From an uncultured Ruminococcus sp. (lineage in GTDB: Bacteria; Bacillota; Clostridia; Oscillospirales; Ruminococcaceae), in NCBI GenBank assembly GCA_946537565.1, contig CAMNFW010000035.1:1-13261 (forward strand): a DNA stretch of 13,261 nt. The letters run 5' to 3'. Below are positions 1,732 through 6,952 of this stretch, piece by piece. Below the pieces are notes generated by a model, which ran no database searches, was not told the origin of the DNA, and saw nothing but the letters and a program-made list of their open reading frames with translations. The first letter of the stretch is position 1. The number at the start of each line of letters is the position of its first letter. A program made the translations under genes and the position numbers.

Positions 1732-2766
1732 TTATTCTTCGTAGATCTGATCAAAAAGTCCGCCGTCTGCAAAATGCTTCTCAAAGGCTTCGTCCCAGCC
1801 GCCAAAATCGTTTATCGTTACAAGATCAAGATCAAGATCAAATGTATCACCGAATTCAGCAAGTACCTTTTCATTCGATGGTCTGTAATAGTTCTCACCA
1901 GCAATTCGCTGCGCCTCTTCTGAATACAGATAGTTCAGGTATTCTGTGGCTACCTCTCTTGTTCCGTTTTTATCAACAACCTTGTCAACTACCGCTACTG
2001 AAGGCTGTGCAAGTATACTGATGCTCGGTGTTACGATCTCATATTCATCAGGATATTCCTGGAGTGAAAGAAATGCTTCATTCTCCCATGCCAGCAGTAC
2101 ATCTCCCTGCTTGTTCTCTACAAAAGAGTTCGTTGCTCCTCTTGCACCAGAATCAAGCACAAGAACGTGTGAGTAAAGTGTCTTTATATAGTCAGTGACT
2201 TTGGCTTCATCGTTGTTGTACTCGCTCTCTGCCCATGCCCATGCTGCAAGATAGTTCCAGCGTGCGCCGCCTGAGGTCTTGGGATTAGGTGTTATTATTC
2301 CTACGTCATCTCTCGCAAGATCTCCCCAGTCAAGTATGTTCTTAGGATTGCCCTTCCTTACAAGAAATACTATTGTTGATGTGTAAGGTGAACTGTCCAG
2401 TGGAAATTCATCTACCCAGCCCGGATCAATCAGACCGGCATCTTCCACTGCCTTGACATCATATTCAAGTGCAAGTGTCACTACATCTGCCGGGTTTCCA
2501 TTGGCTACTTCCAGCGCCTGCTTTCCTGAACCGCCGTGAGATTGAGTTATCTCCACTGTAGAATCATGCTCGGATTCCCAGTGCTTCTTGAACGCTTCAT
2601 TGTATGCTGCGTAAAGCTCTCTTGTCGGGTCATATGACACGTTTACTATAGAGTAGCTTTTTGCACTGTCGTCTGCGTTTGAAGTTTTTCCGCAGCCGGT
2701 GAATGAAAGTGCAGCTGATGCTGCGGCAAGGGTGAATGCTGTTATCTTTAATATACTGTTTTTCAT
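1732..2766 (-). CDS. sbp: Sulfate-binding lipoprotein of the ABC importer
   Basis: The extracellular solute-binding subunit that captures sulfate or thiosulfate and passes it to CysT/CysW; 344 residues, normal for the family. A lipoprotein signal peptide opens the protein: positively charged start, hydrophobic stretch 8-22, then SFTGC with Cys25 as the predicted lipidation site. Anion-binding motifs are visible: QSHGGSGKQA at about 75-84, and NPKTSGGAR at about 161-169, which matches the classic prokaryotic sulfate-binding signature. The ATG at 2764-2766 has AAAGAGG about 9 nt upstream. The frame stays open for 42 more codons upstream to a TTG at 2892, but that start would bury the signal peptide at residue 43, so I rejected it. 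First full gene of the operon, reading from the promoter at 2999-3027. Thiosulfate versus sulfate preference cannot be told. Confidence 0.94.
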   Translation of the reverse strand: MKNSILKITAFTLAAASAALSFTGCGKTSNADDSAKSYSIVNVSYDPTRELYAAYNEAFKKHWESEHDSTVEITQSHGGSGKQALEVANGNPADVVTLALEYDVKAVEDAGLIDPGWVDEFPLDSSPYTSTIVFLVRKGNPKNILDWGDLARDDVGIITPNPKTSGGARWNYLAAWAWAESEYNNDEAKVTDYIKTLYSHVLVLDSGARGATNSFVENKQGDVLLAWENEAFLSLQEYPDEYEIVTPSISILAQPSVAVVDKVVDKNGTREVATEYLNYLYSEEAQRIAGENYYRPSNEKVLAEFGDTFDLDLDLVTINDFGGWDEAFEKHFADGGLFDQIYEE

Positions 2767-2870
2767 GATCAAAAACCTCTTTCTTATTTTTCTCAGCCAG
2801 TCCGTTTTTACTGTGCCTTTTCTCACTGCCTGAGATATTTTTTCTATTATTTCCGGGTAACGTTCAAGGG

Positions 2871-2933
2871 TCACATTCGCTGCGAGGTCCAACAGCGTAT
2901 TACTCCTCCGGCGGCAAAGAATAAGCTATTCAT
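2871..2933 (-). CDS. 20-residue leader ORF upstream of sbp
   Basis: A short ORF (ATG at 2931-2933, TGA at 2871-2873) lies inside the roughly 225-nt 5' leader of the sulfate operon. Its ribosome binding site AAAAGGAGG is the strongest in the operon and sits 6 nt from the ATG. The predicted peptide begins MNSLFFAAGG and ends VIRCWTSQRM, with one Cys and one Trp. It ends 104 nt before the sbp start, and no obvious terminator follows it. A small leader before a sulfur-uptake operon suggests translation-dependent control, but I recognise no named family. Chance is possible for so short a frame; the strong ribosome binding site is the main support. Confidence 0.5.
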   Translation of the reverse strand: MNSLFFAAGGVIRCWTSQRM

Positions 2934-2998: not shown

Positions 2999-3027
2999 AT
3001 AATACACCCTTTTTCCCAAATTGTCAA
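2999..3027 (-). promoter_or_regulatory. Sigma-A type promoter of the sulfate operon
   Basis: On the minus strand, TTGACA (3022-3027) is followed by a 17-nt spacer and TATTAT (2999-3004), one mismatch from the consensus. Transcription would start near 2992, giving a leader of about 225 nt before sbp. A 12-bp palindrome, CATAT-TG-ATATG (2964-2975), lies just downstream of the predicted start and could be a repressor site; no known sulfur-regulator motif was recognised there. Confidence 0.8.
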
Positions 3028-3155
3028 GTCCCCGAAACTAAGTTTGGTGATTTGTACGAAATACAATTCTTCATCACAAAAAGATTATACATATAAATCA
3101 TATCTGATTAGTCGGATTTGTGCGTATGCTCACTGTTTCTGTTCTGCTTCTTTCT
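3028..3155. other. AT-rich gap with no recognised feature
   Basis: This stretch lies between the sulfate promoter and the first hairpin cassette, within the 597-bp gene-poor interval 2767-3363. I see no ribosome binding site with a credible ORF, no RNA gene and no repeat shared with the rest of the window. The small frames that cross it run into the hairpin cassette and are not convincing. Confidence 0.5.
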
Positions 3156-3230
3156 GCCCCTTCCCCATTGGGGAAGGGGCGAGTATGGGGGCGAAGCCCC
3201 CATACTCTTTTGTGGGGCTTCGCCCCACAA
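3156..3230. repeat. Triple-hairpin intergenic cassette, copy 1
   Basis: Three perfect hairpins lie end to end. The first is 3156-3166 / 3170-3180 (11 bp, loop ATT), the second 3181-3192 / 3196-3207 (12 bp, loop GAA), the third 3210-3218 / 3222-3230 (9 bp, loop TTC). Stems are GC-rich (for example GCCCCTTCCCC and TTGTGGGGC). Copy 2 at 5156-5230 has the same arm lengths, loop sizes and order, with 67 of 75 bases identical. It sits past the terminator of the methyltransferase gene and upstream of the sulfate promoter. There is no protein-coding signal. It is probably a short dispersed repeat of REP or MITE type; no transposase is visible nearby. Confidence 0.88.
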
Positions 3231-3286
3231 TCCACTGCCATAACCGTATTGTTTATATTTACCTGCCGCTGTGTTAAAATAAAAAT

Positions 3287-3342
3287 ACACTATCTGCTGC
3301 TTTTTTTCAGCCGACTAAAGCTTCTTATGCTGCGGATAGTGT
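3287..3342 (-). terminator. Intrinsic terminator after the nadC-methyltransferase operon
   Basis: Arms 3329-3342 and 3287-3300 pair over 14 positions with two mismatches; the outer eight (ACACTATC / GATAGTGT) are perfect. On the minus strand the stem is followed by ATTTTTATTTT, as expected of a Rho-independent terminator 21 nt past the methyltransferase stop. The plus-strand side also has a T-run (3341-3350), so it could act in both directions. The 28-nt loop is unusually large. Confidence 0.7.
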
Positions 3343-3363
3343 TTTTTATTATTGTTCCAATCA

Positions 3364-4173
3364 TTATCTCAGCTGCCAGAACGCTACTGCACTGGCTGCT
3401 GCTACATTCAGCGAATCTACGCCGTTTGCCATTGGTATCTTAACTCGATAGGTGCAGCTGTCAATAGTTGTATCCTTAAGTCCTTCGCCCTCTGTTCCAA
3501 GAACTACTGCCAGCTTGCTTATATCCATCAGCTCAGGGGAATCTATACTAAGAGTATCATCACGAAGTGCCATTGCCGCTGTCATGAACCCCATATCATG
3601 CAGATAATTAATATAATCCGGTGAACCGCCGGGTATATATGTCCAGGGTATCTGAAATACCGTTCCCATACTTACCCTCAGCGACCGCCTGTAAAGCGGA
3701 TCACTGCACGGCTCCGTTAGTATTACCGCATCATAGTTGAGCGCTGCCGCTGAACGAAAAATCGCTCCAACATTTGTCTGGTTCATTATATCTTCCAGGA
3801 CAGCTACTCGTCTTGCTCCCTGCAATACCTTCTCCGGAGTTGAAAGCTTCTGCCGCCGCATTACACTGAGCAGTCCCTGTGTAAGCCGAAAGCCCGTAAT
3901 CTGTGTAAGCAGTTCACTGTCAGCGGTATAGACCTTTATATCTCCGCATCGTTCGATTATATCCACAGCCTGGCCTGTTATATATTTTCTTTCCGCTAAA
4001 AGTGAAAGCGGTTCATATCCTGCATCCAATGCTCTGCGGATCACCTTTGGACTTTCTGCTATGAATATTCCCGGCTCAGGCTCATAAAACCGCAGCAGCT
4101 GCACCTCTGAGGTACAGCTGTAGGGAAAAAGCTCAGGTATTGACAGGTCATTTATCTCGATTATCTCTGCCAT
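3364..4173 (-). CDS. SpoU/TrmH-family RNA 2'-O-methyltransferase
   Basis: A knotted (SPOUT) methyltransferase that transfers a methyl group from S-adenosylmethionine to a ribose 2'-OH in rRNA or tRNA; 269 residues. The N-terminal part (about 30-110) resembles the substrate-binding domain of the RlmB/TrmH type. The three catalytic-domain motifs follow in order: NQTNVGAIFRSAAAL at about 131-145 with the catalytic Asn and Arg, LGTEGEGL at about 225-232, and IPMANGVDSLNVAAA at about 246-260. I chose the ATG at 4171-4173 because it shares one base with the nadC stop (TAATG), a translational-coupling arrangement. A frame-open ATG at 4209 lies inside nadC and has no ribosome binding site. The RNA target cannot be told from sequence. 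A terminator follows at 3287-3342. Confidence 0.9.
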   Translation of the reverse strand: MAEIIEINDLSIPELFPYSCTSEVQLLRFYEPEPGIFIAESPKVIRRALDAGYEPLSLLAERKYITGQAVDIIERCGDIKVYTADSELLTQITGFRLTQGLLSVMRRQKLSTPEKVLQGARRVAVLEDIMNQTNVGAIFRSAAALNYDAVILTEPCSDPLYRRSLRVSMGTVFQIPWTYIPGGSPDYINYLHDMGFMTAAMALRDDTLSIDSPELMDISKLAVVLGTEGEGLKDTTIDSCTYRVKIPMANGVDSLNVAAASAVAFWQLR

Positions 4174-5015
4174 TATTTCGTTTTTATTTTCATCGAAATG
4201 TCGAAACATTTCACTGAATGTGTCAGCGCACCAAGTGAGATTATGTCAACTCCAGTCTCTGCAACCTGACGGATATTTTCACTGGTAACATTTCCGGAAG
4301 CCTCCAGAAGCGCCTGTCCAGCTGTTATCTCAACTGCCTTTTTCATATCATCACAGCTCATATTGTCCAGCATTATGATCTCGACCTTATTGTCAAGCGC
4401 TTCTTTAAGCTCTTCCAATGTACGAACCTCAACCTCGATCTTGACTGTGTGACCTATCTTCTCACGAAGTGCTGATACCGCAGCTGTAATACCGCCGTAT
4501 GCGTCAATATGGTTATCCTTGAGCATTGCTGCATCTGAAAGATTGAAACGGTGATTCTTTCCGCCGCCAACTGTAACTGCATATTTTTGCAGTCCACGCA
4601 GACCAGGCAGTGTTTTTCTTGTATCAGTTACAGAAGCGTTTGTGCCCTTTACCAGCTCCACACATTTATTTGTGGCTGTTGCAATTCCAGACATATGCTG
4701 GAGAATATTAAGCGCCGTTCTCTCACCTTTCAGAAGAGTCAGCGTACTGCCCTCCAGTTCTGCAATGATATCGCCTTTTTTAACCTTTGAACCGTCGGGC
4801 AAAAGTATTCTGAACTCTACATTTCCTCCTGCCAGATCAAACACTCTCCTGGCTATATCTATTCCGCAGACCACACCCTCGTCCTTTGCAACATAATATG
4901 CTGAGCTTTTGTGGCCGTCAGGGATAAGGTTATCCGCAGCAGCGTCGATATAGTTTATATCCTCCATGAGGGCAGTTGTGATTATATTGTCGATGTAGCA
5001 TTGTAATAATCTCAT
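4173..5015 (-). CDS. nadC: Quinolinate phosphoribosyltransferase (carboxylating)
   Basis: Joins quinolinate and PRPP to give nicotinate mononucleotide, CO2 and pyrophosphate, the last step specific to de novo NAD synthesis; cytoplasmic. It has 280 residues, the usual length. Motifs in order: GERTALNILQHMSGIAT (about 97-113), DTRKTLPGLR (about 131-140), KYAVTVGGGKNHR (about 144-156), LKDNH (about 165-169), IEVEV (about 193-197), IIMLDN (about 213-218), EASGN (about 238-242) and GVDIISLGALTHS (about 255-267). These include the Arg/His/Lys residues that bind quinolinate and PRPP. Two ATGs lie 6 nt apart; the ribosome binding site AAAAGGAG is 8 nt before the one at 5013-5015 and too close to the one at 5019-5021. 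No clear promoter was found between it and the cassette at 5074-5250. It overlaps the next gene by one base. Confidence 0.96.
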   Translation of the reverse strand: MRLLQCYIDNIITTALMEDINYIDAAADNLIPDGHKSSAYYVAKDEGVVCGIDIARRVFDLAGGNVEFRILLPDGSKVKKGDIIAELEGSTLTLLKGERTALNILQHMSGIATATNKCVELVKGTNASVTDTRKTLPGLRGLQKYAVTVGGGKNHRFNLSDAAMLKDNHIDAYGGITAAVSALREKIGHTVKIEVEVRTLEELKEALDNKVEIIMLDNMSCDDMKKAVEITAGQALLEASGNVTSENIRQVAETGVDIISLGALTHSVKCFDISMKIKTK

Positions 5016-5118
5016 TATCATAACTCCTTTTTTACAGTTATCGTTGCTTCGCTCAAAGGAAGCTTTTATCAGTCACTTTCCGCAGCTAAGGCTTACATCT
5101 GCCTCTGCACCAGTCCCT

Positions 5119-5150
5119 ACGGAAATCAATTTTTTTAAATTGATTTCCGT
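5119..5150. other. 14-bp perfect hairpin
   Basis: Arms 5119-5132 and 5137-5150 (ACGGAAATCAATTT and its reverse complement) pair perfectly over a TTTT loop. It lies 5 bp from the second triple-hairpin cassette. Copy 1 has no counterpart, so this hairpin is not part of the shared cassette. It could act as a processing or transcription-stop site; no T-run follows. Confidence 0.65.
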
Positions 5151-5155
5151 GCCCA

Positions 5156-5230
5156 GCCCCCTCCCCAATGGGGAGGGGGCGTTTATGGGGGCGAAGCCCC
5201 CATAAACTATTGTGGGGCTTCGCCCCACAA
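5156..5230. repeat. Triple-hairpin intergenic cassette, copy 2
   Basis: Same architecture as 3156-3230: 11-bp stem (5156-5166 / 5170-5180, loop AAT), 12-bp stem (5181-5192 / 5196-5207, loop GAA) and 9-bp stem (5210-5218 / 5222-5230, loop TTC, extendable by one A-T pair). Relative to copy 1, three stem pairs changed on both sides: T-A to C-G in hairpin 1, and A-T to T-A and G-C to T-A in hairpin 2. The only unpaired differences are one loop base and one linker base. It is in the same orientation as copy 1. It lies downstream of the carboxypeptidase gene and upstream of nadC. Confidence 0.88.
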
Positions 5231-5301
5231 TACACAGGCTGCGGAAAGTGTTATATAAATAGCTGATCATAGTTTTTGATGAAGTGATCCGAAATATGCT
5301 C

Positions 5302-6918
5302 TCAGTTCTGGTATCTTGAGCTGACAGCCAGATATTCCTCAAGAGTAAGTCCGGAATCATATATGAGCTTTGCATTCTCCTTGCCGAGATAACGAACGTG
5401 CCAGGGTTCATATTTATATCCTGTTATATTCTGCTTGCCTTCAGGATAGCGAATGATAAAGCCGTACTTCCAGCAGTTTTCAGCCAGCCATATCGCCTCA
5501 GGCGTACCCTTGAAGGAGTCGCTTGCCTGGATAATATCCGCAGCAAGTCCCGTCTGATGCTCGGAATGACCGGGACGTGCAGAATATGTATCTGCCTTTT
5601 CCTGACCGTCTCTTGCAACATAGCTGTTATACAGACTGCTCTGGTAGCTGTACGAACGGTATCCTGAACATATCCACAGGTTGAGACCGTCATTGGCTGC
5701 TGCTTCCTTCATCTCCGCAAAGGCTGCATTGAACTCAGCTGTCAGTCCGCCGGGATCATAGGTTGAAGGAAGCGAAAAGGTCTTATTTACGATAAGTATG
5801 CCATTGATATAGGTCAAGCCGTCCTTCTGGACTATCTCACGGCGTGCAAAGCCTTCCTTCTCGCCGTTTTCCCAGGTCAGAACAAAACGGTTCTTATCAT
5901 AACGTTTTATCTCAGCAGTTTCAGATGTGCCGTCTTCATTTACAAAGCGTATAGTGTTTTCATCTGCATAATAATAAAATGGAGTCTTGACGGTCTCACC
6001 TTTTTTCTGGGACGTACCGGTGTAGTTGTTGATAGTTACATATCTCACGCCTCTCTGACCGGAAACGTAATATGTTCCGGTAAGATCTTCAGTGCCGGCA
6101 TAGTCTGTATTTCCTGCATAGGTAAAATTCTCGGTTCCGGTTCCTGCCCAGCTGAGGTTAAAGTGTGTATCGTCCAGCCATTCTATCTCCGCAGAAGCCT
6201 TGTTTTCGTTTTCAGCGCCCAGGGTAAGCTCAACATTTTTTCCGCTTATATCCATTGTAAAATCTGCGCCCATTCCACTCTCTGCCTTGACGAAATGTCC
6301 GCCGCCGCTGCTAAACCAGAAGTATCTTATGCTGTCATAGCCGCTGCCTATCCACATTCCTTCCGGACACTCCTCGTCCTTCTGCTGGGTGTATTTTTCT
6401 TCACTGAGAAACGTAAAGCTTTCCTTTCCGTCCTGCCAGATTATGTCAAAATGAGTGTCATCTATCCACTTGATATTCGTTACTGTTGCCCAGCCGTTAT
6501 AGCTGAAATTGAAAACCAGCTTCCCATTGGTGAGTATACAGCCAAACTTCACGCTTTCTCCGTCATCTGCGGTATAATCTCCCGATACTCCGTCAAACCA
6601 GAAATATCTCTTCCCTGCATATCCCTCGCCGACCCAGCTTCCTGCCGGCATTTTCTTGTAATATGCTGAGAAATACTGCCTTTGAGCTATCATGTCAAAA
6701 ACGTCCACTGTGCCGTCACCGTTTATATCTCCGTCCAGTTCACCATACTGCGAATTCTTATTGATGAGTCTGTCACTCAGAGCTGTCAGATCAAGATTAC
6801 TCATGATATTGTCGGCGTTGAAGTCATATTTCAGCACAGCACCGTCCGCTGTCATTGTCACCATTCCTGCTCCCAGCACCGCTGCTGCCAGCATTGCCGT
6901 TAACCTGATCTTTCTCAA
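5302..6918 (-). CDS. Secreted dockerin-bearing VanY-type D,D-carboxypeptidase
   Basis: Predicted zinc peptidase that removes the terminal D-Ala from wall peptides outside the cell; 538 residues. Order: signal peptide (about 1-27); type I dockerin with two calcium-loop repeats (about 31-83, DFNADNIMSNLD and DINGDGTVDVFD); three beta-rich repeats (about 93-175, 185-270, 278-360) with recurring GSGY/GEGY, RYFWF and DDTHF stretches; then the VanY domain (about 366-538). Zinc-site motifs are present: SEHQTGLAAD (His454, Asp461) and EPWH (His507). SGYRSYSYQSSLY at about 418-430 is also typical. The TTG at 6916-6918 has AAAGGG 8 nt upstream; a GTG at 6927 overlaps that site and is less likely. Dockerins usually bind cohesins on scaffold proteins; on a wall carboxypeptidase this is unusual. 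D,L- or L,D-specificity cannot be excluded. It follows the ClC gene by 113 nt. Confidence 0.92.
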   Translation of the reverse strand: MRKIRLTAMLAAAVLGAGMVTMTADGAVLKYDFNADNIMSNLDLTALSDRLINKNSQYGELDGDINGDGTVDVFDMIAQRQYFSAYYKKMPAGSWVGEGYAGKRYFWFDGVSGDYTADDGESVKFGCILTNGKLVFNFSYNGWATVTNIKWIDDTHFDIIWQDGKESFTFLSEEKYTQQKDEECPEGMWIGSGYDSIRYFWFSSGGGHFVKAESGMGADFTMDISGKNVELTLGAENENKASAEIEWLDDTHFNLSWAGTGTENFTYAGNTDYAGTEDLTGTYYVSGQRGVRYVTINNYTGTSQKKGETVKTPFYYYADENTIRFVNEDGTSETAEIKRYDKNRFVLTWENGEKEGFARREIVQKDGLTYINGILIVNKTFSLPSTYDPGGLTAEFNAAFAEMKEAAANDGLNLWICSGYRSYSYQSSLYNSYVARDGQEKADTYSARPGHSEHQTGLAADIIQASDSFKGTPEAIWLAENCWKYGFIIRYPEGKQNITGYKYEPWHVRYLGKENAKLIYDSGLTLEEYLAVSSRYQN

Positions 6919-6952
6919 AATTATCACCCTTTCATTTTGTTCTGATACCGCA

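Follow-up and report, generated by a model that had tools for sequence, protein, structure and literature searches.

How can a DNA hairpin change in both of its arms and stay paired? The question is raised by two intergenic cassettes of an uncultured Ruminococcus sp., each a chain of three GC-rich hairpins. They lie in a window of 13,261 nt that is an entire contig (C35, CAMNFW010000035.1) of assembly GCA_946537565.1, a draft of 310 contigs and 2.16 Mb that is 90% complete. An original prediction had read the cassettes as an RNA element or a hairpin-based mobile repeat. The mobile half of that proposal is favored by a short junction in relatives at one of the two sites, by ends like those of miniature inverted-repeat transposable elements (MITE), and by a shared internal order. 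In our view, each cassette is likely to represent the GC-hairpin arm of a MITE-like, non-autonomous transposon, whose stems have probably been re-paired mainly at the DNA level. The element is most likely a degenerate MITE with ends resembling those of the insertion sequences (IS) IS4/IS231, carried by a gut or rumen bacterium.

Cassettes, probable insertion and inverted ends

The 75-bp units at 3156-3230 (copy 1) and 5156-5230 (copy 2) have the structure originally described, with stems of 11, 12, and 9 bp and 3-nt loops. They differ, again as described, at eight positions (3161, 3168, 3175, 3182, 3183, 3205, 3206, and 3209 in copy 1 numbering). Six of these form three compensated pairs (3161/3175, 3182/3206, and 3183/3205), and the other two fall in the loop of hairpin A and in the linker between hairpins B and C. 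Both units fold as three hairpins on either strand, with z scores of -9.9 and -8.9 against 200 shuffles per unit. Three complete matching pairs would arise from six randomly placed stem changes with p ∼2.4e-6; a column-shuffle control, weak because it rests on two sequences, equaled the observed pairing in 57 of 500 shuffles. Hairpins B and C are of opposite strand sense, with loops GAA and TTC. GCGAAGC, an extraordinarily stable DNA mini-hairpin, is found in hairpin B on one strand and in hairpin C on the other. We counted 24 perfect hairpins with stems of 9 bp or longer and loops of 3-5 nt in the 273,714 bp of this genome that we scanned (∼13% of it), as compared with 3-7 in five shuffles, in a sample that is biased in that at least seven of its 20 stretches, plus the window, were picked because they contain perfect hairpins.

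One sign of mobility comes from copy 2, which separates nadC from an upstream vanY homologue. Among 100 genus genomes, including the window's own, 97 have nadC, and we retrieved this locus from the 29 best relatives. A vanY homologue lies directly upstream of nadC on the same strand in 22 of the 29, whereas in the other seven there is no vanY within the locus. The vanY-nadC gap is 5-38 nt in 14 of the 22 syntenic relatives, and 10 nt in the two nearest ones (nadC 92.5% identical), as compared with 280 nt in the window. The long junction is specific to the lineage, and because the gap is short in those 14 relatives, copy 2 looks inserted. This is the one cassette site compared with relatives, and it agrees with what an insertion predicts. 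The inserted element would be 177 bp long (5074-5250), with perfect 13-bp inverted ends that fold as an outer stem. Neither this element nor the congeneric MITE described below, of which one copy was queried, had a match in the plasmid collection.

In two congeneric genomes, G140 and G087, related double hairpins lie within a single arm of elements that measure 186 or 228 bp and have 18-bp inverted ends (CACTRTCYACAACTTAAG). These elements are flanked by 10-bp target duplications. Among 21 end pairs from 30 stretches, nine have identical 10-bp flanks (two of the nine are apparently one locus), and flanks agree at 8/10 or more positions in 14 of the 21, versus 3.6% of mismatched pairings. The apparently duplicated locus (L205 and L206, on two contigs) was counted twice in the element, end-pair, and first-profile figures. 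When the end motif was counted on both strands with up to three mismatches, using the reversed pattern as control, it was in ∼sevenfold excess in G140 and G087 (223 and 243 versus 34 and 32) and in ∼twofold excess in a third genome, G136 (63 versus 30).

An end profile was built from these congeneric ends without the window's species, using 19 of the 21 end pairs in its first version and 18 after removal of one redundant element. Applied to both strands of our own-genome sample (546,714 positions), it ranked the arm ends that flank copies 1 and 2 first (3341, minus strand), 17th (5074, plus), 47th (3288, plus), and 120th (5250, minus). The two arms flanking a third copy on contig C14, described below, ranked 332nd and 423rd, so that all six cassette-flanking arms are within the top 423. 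Without the redundant element the six ranks are 1, 16, 46, 118, 319, and 467, and none of 300 column-permuted profiles equaled the real one on the six arms. For copy 1, a candidate left end at position 3131 ranked 26,442 and was rejected. By eye, the copy 2 element is also laid out like the 186-bp MITE, with one end followed by GC hairpins, an AT hairpin, a plain arm, and the second end. On account of these ranks and this shared order, we take all three copies to be degenerate relatives of the MITE family.

How far such structures extend was assessed with R2, a covariance model built from double hairpins of congener G083. With at most ∼40 candidates scored per genome, R2 has matches in 86 of 125 genus genomes. 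R2 also matches unrelated hairpins of the window, and a match therefore shows a kind of structure and not always homology. The best copies in five examined genomes have CCAAAGGG-type and GGGGGAC...GTCCCCC-type arms in common, with paired variation.

Some congeneric copies have a more elaborate layout. In L186, L183, L185, L212, L216, and L230, the GC hairpins adjoin a long AT-rich hairpin, perfect or nearly so, with a stem sequence that varies among copies; it looks as though copying of flanking DNA had produced an inverted repeat. Elsewhere (L216:2501-2693, L213:2375-2573, L248:2501-2701, and L245:2501-2690), two units stand head to head around one AT hairpin, which makes a symmetrical five-hairpin element. 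Four congeneric nadC loci (L117, L120, L130, and L139) have hairpins of other families (GGGCGGAT...ATCCGCCC and GGGCGGAC...GTCCGCCC) at the same or nearby junctions.

Further copies and the paired stem changes

The original prediction would have been undermined by finding only two copies in the genome, or by unpaired stem changes in others. A search of the window's own genome by blastn and a covariance model built on copies 1 and 2 (R1) identified a third full copy at C14:9693-9770. It differs from copies 1 and 2 by two-sided pair changes and by one base pair inserted in both arms of hairpin B, and keeps all its pairs except one end pair, now A.A. Weaker kin with one or two hairpins are present on C1, C50 (two), C125, C246, and C255, with weak model E values of 0.004 to 0.1; the C255 kin comes from blastn and pattern only. 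The cassettes are thus more than a pair, and unpaired changes do occur, in the end pair of copy 3 and in the second C50 unit. Six of the ten hairpin sites besides the three full units (ten sites on eight contigs) lie <250 bp from a contig end, on five contigs, and the draft assembly therefore probably lacks some copies.

Among the weaker kin, the two-hairpin unit on C50 (L177:10057-10211) is repeated in tandem, the two units having the same first hairpin and the second unit an imperfect second hairpin. The kin on C1, C125, C246, and C255 (L162, L178, L179, and L180) lie inside another repeat with recurring GTTACTTTT / AAAAGTAAC motifs.

Across the genus, R1 run with strict filters on the 100 genomes matched the own genome and gave three weak matches in G083, whose hairpins are of another kind. 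An RNA conserved across the genus was rejected on this basis. A search of GTDB contigs with the two-hairpin core returned 38 stretches. Many of them belong to unrelated groups, including Magnetococcales, Viridilinea, and Nocardia, and two come from uncultured Clostridia or Ruminococcus. We take these to be probably independent GC-rich hairpins. Chains of GC hairpins with GAA/TTC loops are seen in such unrelated groups, e.g. Magnetococcales and Viridilinea (L028-L065).

To characterize the stem changes, we used 100 related elements, comprising the best 74 of 83 matches and the best 26 of 310. Their stems show few intermediates: non-Watson-Crick pairs account for 22 of 1881 (G.T 8, A.C 4, others 10). 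The 97 elements that could be anchored for column counts show 43 two-sided changes versus 14 broken cells at pairs 1-8 of hairpin 2. Another alignment, A3 (26 two-sided, 0 one-sided, and 1 broken of 304 cells), was set aside, having been drawn from perfect hairpins and hence biased. The loops of hairpin 2 keep one orientation (AGC, AGA, GGC, AAC, and similar), with no reverse complements seen. Loops in one orientation together with paired arms fit intrastrand template switching, which repairs the arms and retains the loop. The change of the hairpin A loop from ATT to AAT equals an inversion as from interstrand switching, and is also a single substitution.

Template switching that homogenizes arms has been documented (PMC8604942 and PMC8794818), and loop-retaining intrastrand events at stable loops have been reported (PMC8794818). 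Strand-templated repair, which the original prediction had raised as a possible source of paired changes, is in our judgement their likeliest cause, although unproven. Selection for the hairpin by the transposition machinery would give the same picture of paired changes. We propose the following sequence of events. A small, gene-less element would have inserted between genes, moved by an IS transposase acting in trans. After insertion, a nascent strand would fold back at a very stable small loop, and one arm would be copied from the other with the loop kept, so that intrastrand template switching would re-pair the stems. More tentatively, this genus may contain a large superfamily of MITEs that carry perfect hairpins in series, with self-templated DNA synthesis at very stable small loops altering both arms of a stem together; we hold this wider proposal to be possible rather than probable.

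The implications reach beyond this locus. Conservation of an RNA is conventionally demonstrated by compensated pairs, and here such pairs occur in mobile DNA that is placed regardless of transcription. If the wider proposal is correct, such MITEs generate textbook RNA covariation without RNA, and each copy records intrastrand template switching. This is a warning against naming such repeats RNA families. A high-copy system of this kind can test how much covariation template switching alone makes, and, with the ends and target duplications of the MITE family now defined, its transposase can be sought.

Counter-evidence and alternative readings

Several observations count against the degenerate MITE and its re-paired stems. 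Concerning the insertion, eight of the 22 syntenic relatives have longer vanY-nadC gaps as well (86, 125, 266, 583, 586, 884, 900, and 902 nt; those of 86 and 125 nt contain other, unrelated hairpins), and the copy 2 gap contains another ∼100 bp specific to the window's lineage. The flanks of copy 2 agree at 7/10 positions, as 1.4% of AT-rich pairs do by chance, and agreement is 4/10 for the copy 1 repeat and 5/10 for copy 3. Perfect 12-bp inverted repeats with a 40-250-nt gap are not rare in themselves, the 273,714-bp sample having ∼10 different ones, and copy 1 sits outside, adjoining its inverted repeat. Concerning the ends, the motif shows no excess in the window's own genome (47 versus a control of 43), falls below control in G068 (72 versus 102) and G090 (29 versus 57), which are closest by nadC, and is near control in G030 and G083. 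The six arms are non-independent, and their likeness was noticed before the test, making it a measurement rather than a blind prediction. By sequence, the hairpins of the window and those of the congeneric MITE are not homologous. We located no transposase bearing these ends, and no search aimed at one was made. Concerning the stems, pair 9 of hairpin 2, at the stem end, has 20 two-sided versus 27 unpaired cells.

The positions of the copies bear on the alternatives (Table 1). Copy 1 is bordered on one side by a SpoU methylase gene and the terminator-like inverted repeat that follows it, and on the other by the promoter-like site of a solute-binding protein gene; all of these are on the minus strand. 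The repeat may be the terminator of the methylase gene; it was unflagged in the terminator scan of the window. Copy 2 lies between two genes of the same direction, VanY and nadC. Copy 3 lies on C14 in a divergent gap, between an iron-alcohol-dehydrogenase-like gene (minus strand) and a dockerin gene (plus strand). The dockerin gene, together with the overall gene content, points to a Ruminococcus-like host. The three copies are in three kinds of place, and therefore have no constant position relative to transcription.

Table 1. Coordinates of the cassettes, their inverted repeats, and neighboring features
Feature	Position	Strand	Remarks
Copy 1 hairpin A	3156..3180	+	11 bp, loop ATT
Copy 1 hairpin B	3181..3207	+	12 bp, loop GAA
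Copy 1 hairpin C	3210..3230	+	9 bp, loop TTC
Copy 2 hairpin A	5156..5180	+	11 bp, loop AAT
Copy 2 hairpin B	5181..5207	+	12 bp, loop GAA
Copy 2 hairpin C	5208..5232	+	11 bp here, loop TTC
Copy 2 fourth hairpin	5119..5150		AT-rich, perfect, 14 bp; precedes hairpin A; missed in the original prediction
Copy 2 left terminal inverted repeat, CACTTTCCGCAGC	5074..5086	+	perfect with 5238-5250
Copy 2 right terminal inverted repeat	5238..5250	-	
Candidate left target duplication	5064..5073		7/10 identical to 5251-5260; weak
Candidate right target duplication	5251..5260		weak
Imperfect inverted repeat beside copy 1	3288..3341	-	54 bp
Promoter-like TTGACA-17-TATTAT, between copy 1 and solute-binding protein gene	2999..3027	-	11/12; consensus match only
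Extracellular solute-binding protein gene, downstream of copy 1	1732..2892	-	Pfam PF13531
SpoU-type methylase gene, upstream of copy 1	3364..4209	-	Pfam PF00588
nadC, quinolinate phosphoribosyltransferase, downstream of copy 2 insertion	4173..5021	-	Pfam PF01729, PF02749
VanY-type carboxypeptidase gene, upstream of copy 2 insertion	5302..6927	-	Pfam PF02557
High-copy MITE examples	L206:2494-2721, L233:2494-2679		genomes G140, G087; 186/228 bp, 18-bp inverted ends, 10-bp target duplications

A strong hairpin between two tandem genes can end transcription or shield the mRNA, and the cassettes might accordingly be bidirectional terminators or stabilizers of mRNA 3' ends that were spread by local duplication. 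The inverted repeat of copy 1 is indeed flanked on both sides by A/T runs, and hairpin B of copy 1, with its TTTT tail, was flagged as terminator-like. However, this was the one flagged among the six GC hairpins in a scan that covered the window copies, with none in copy 2; the genes on either side of copy 3 are divergent, and a terminator role leaves three hairpins plus inverted ends unexplained. We judge this origin unlikely; a terminator effect may be a consequence of insertion instead. Separately, the GCTGCGGA-type arm was considered as a genome-wide terminator motif (116 versus a control of 24 per strand) and rejected, since 30 contexts inspected by eye looked mostly coding.

Mobility could also have another basis. 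Repetitive extragenic palindromes (REP), and the REPIN that they form, are moved by a Y1 transposase (RAYT) that reads single-stranded hairpins, and pairing would be kept as the enzyme needs the hairpin. The cassettes are palindromic and intergenic, the opposite strand sense of hairpins B and C suits such units, and compensatory changes are known in REPINs (PMC3116915). Y1_Tnp genes are present in G030, one of the five genomes in which related elements were examined. By contrast, Y1_Tnp (PF01797) is absent from the window's genome, a draft of the completeness given above, and from G083, G087, G136, and G140, all rich in related elements, while 41 of 125 genus genomes have it. The signature GTAG does not occur on the plus strand of the three copy regions, and CTAC, its reverse complement, is present a single time, in the region of copy 2. 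Furthermore, the 18-bp ends and 10-bp target duplications of the congeneric family are unlike those of REPs, and we find a REP origin quite improbable.

As for the other half of the original proposal, a structured RNA, cis-regulatory or small, whose three hairpins are under selection would explain the perfect stems, the three compensated pairs between copies 1 and 2, the further compensated pairs and both-arm insertion of copy 3, and the very low folding energy as true compensatory covariation, but we regard it as very unlikely, considering that neither the window nor 18 loci (17 congeneric stretches, among them loci with copies of the congeneric MITE, and the own C50) have an Rfam match above the gathering threshold, that the copies lie in a divergent gap, upstream of a promoter-like site, and between tandem genes, and that the R1 matches are confined as described above. 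Strand bias is lacking too. Crude open reading frame (ORF) calls place 62 of the 100 related elements in tandem gaps, 30 along and 32 against transcription (of the others, 14 lie in convergent and 9 in divergent gaps, 10 overlap a crude ORF, and 5 are located at an edge). The G.T and A.C counts given above are too small to separate from each other or to reveal a G.U excess.

Comparison with known systems

No description of such elements in Ruminococcus or Clostridia was found in the searched literature, which comprised titles and abstract openings and few subscription journals. The closest parallels to the proposed degenerate MITE are bacterial MITEs and mobile insertion cassettes with IS4-family (IS231) ends, which are likewise small, gene-less, and intergenic, with inverted ends. 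Table 1 of PMC2266710 lists for IS231 the end pattern CAT-------AA--TAA--- and direct repeats of 10-12 bp. The congeneric MITE consensus agrees with this pattern at seven of the eight named places, the third base being different, and its 10-bp duplications fit as well, whereas the arms in the window agree less. The cassette MIC231 is reported to be moved in trans by the IS231 transposase (PMC1196294), and the IS231 subgroup is recorded, in the account of PMC2266710, almost only in the B. cereus group. Unlike in IS231-type cassettes, one arm here consists of perfect GC-rich hairpins in series, whose stems vary.

Other dispersed hairpins are less alike. REP/REPIN are also palindromic intergenic repeats with compensatory stem changes (PMC3116915), but the window's genome has no Y1 transposase and no consistent GTAG, and the congeneric ends and duplications are of another kind. 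The repetitive hairpin elements (RHE; PMC2800124) and double-hairpin elements (DHE) of mitochondria are likewise intergenic hairpin elements dispersed in a genome; here the host is bacterial, and the congeneric family has inverted ends and target duplications. For the stems themselves, the best counterpart is template-switch mutation at quasipalindromes, which explains in one event paired changes, lengthening of both arms, and retention or inversion of the loop (PMC8794818 and PMC8604942). The cases published there concern rRNA and yeast coding genes, whereas the cassettes of this Ruminococcus sp. are serial hairpins in a probable mobile element.

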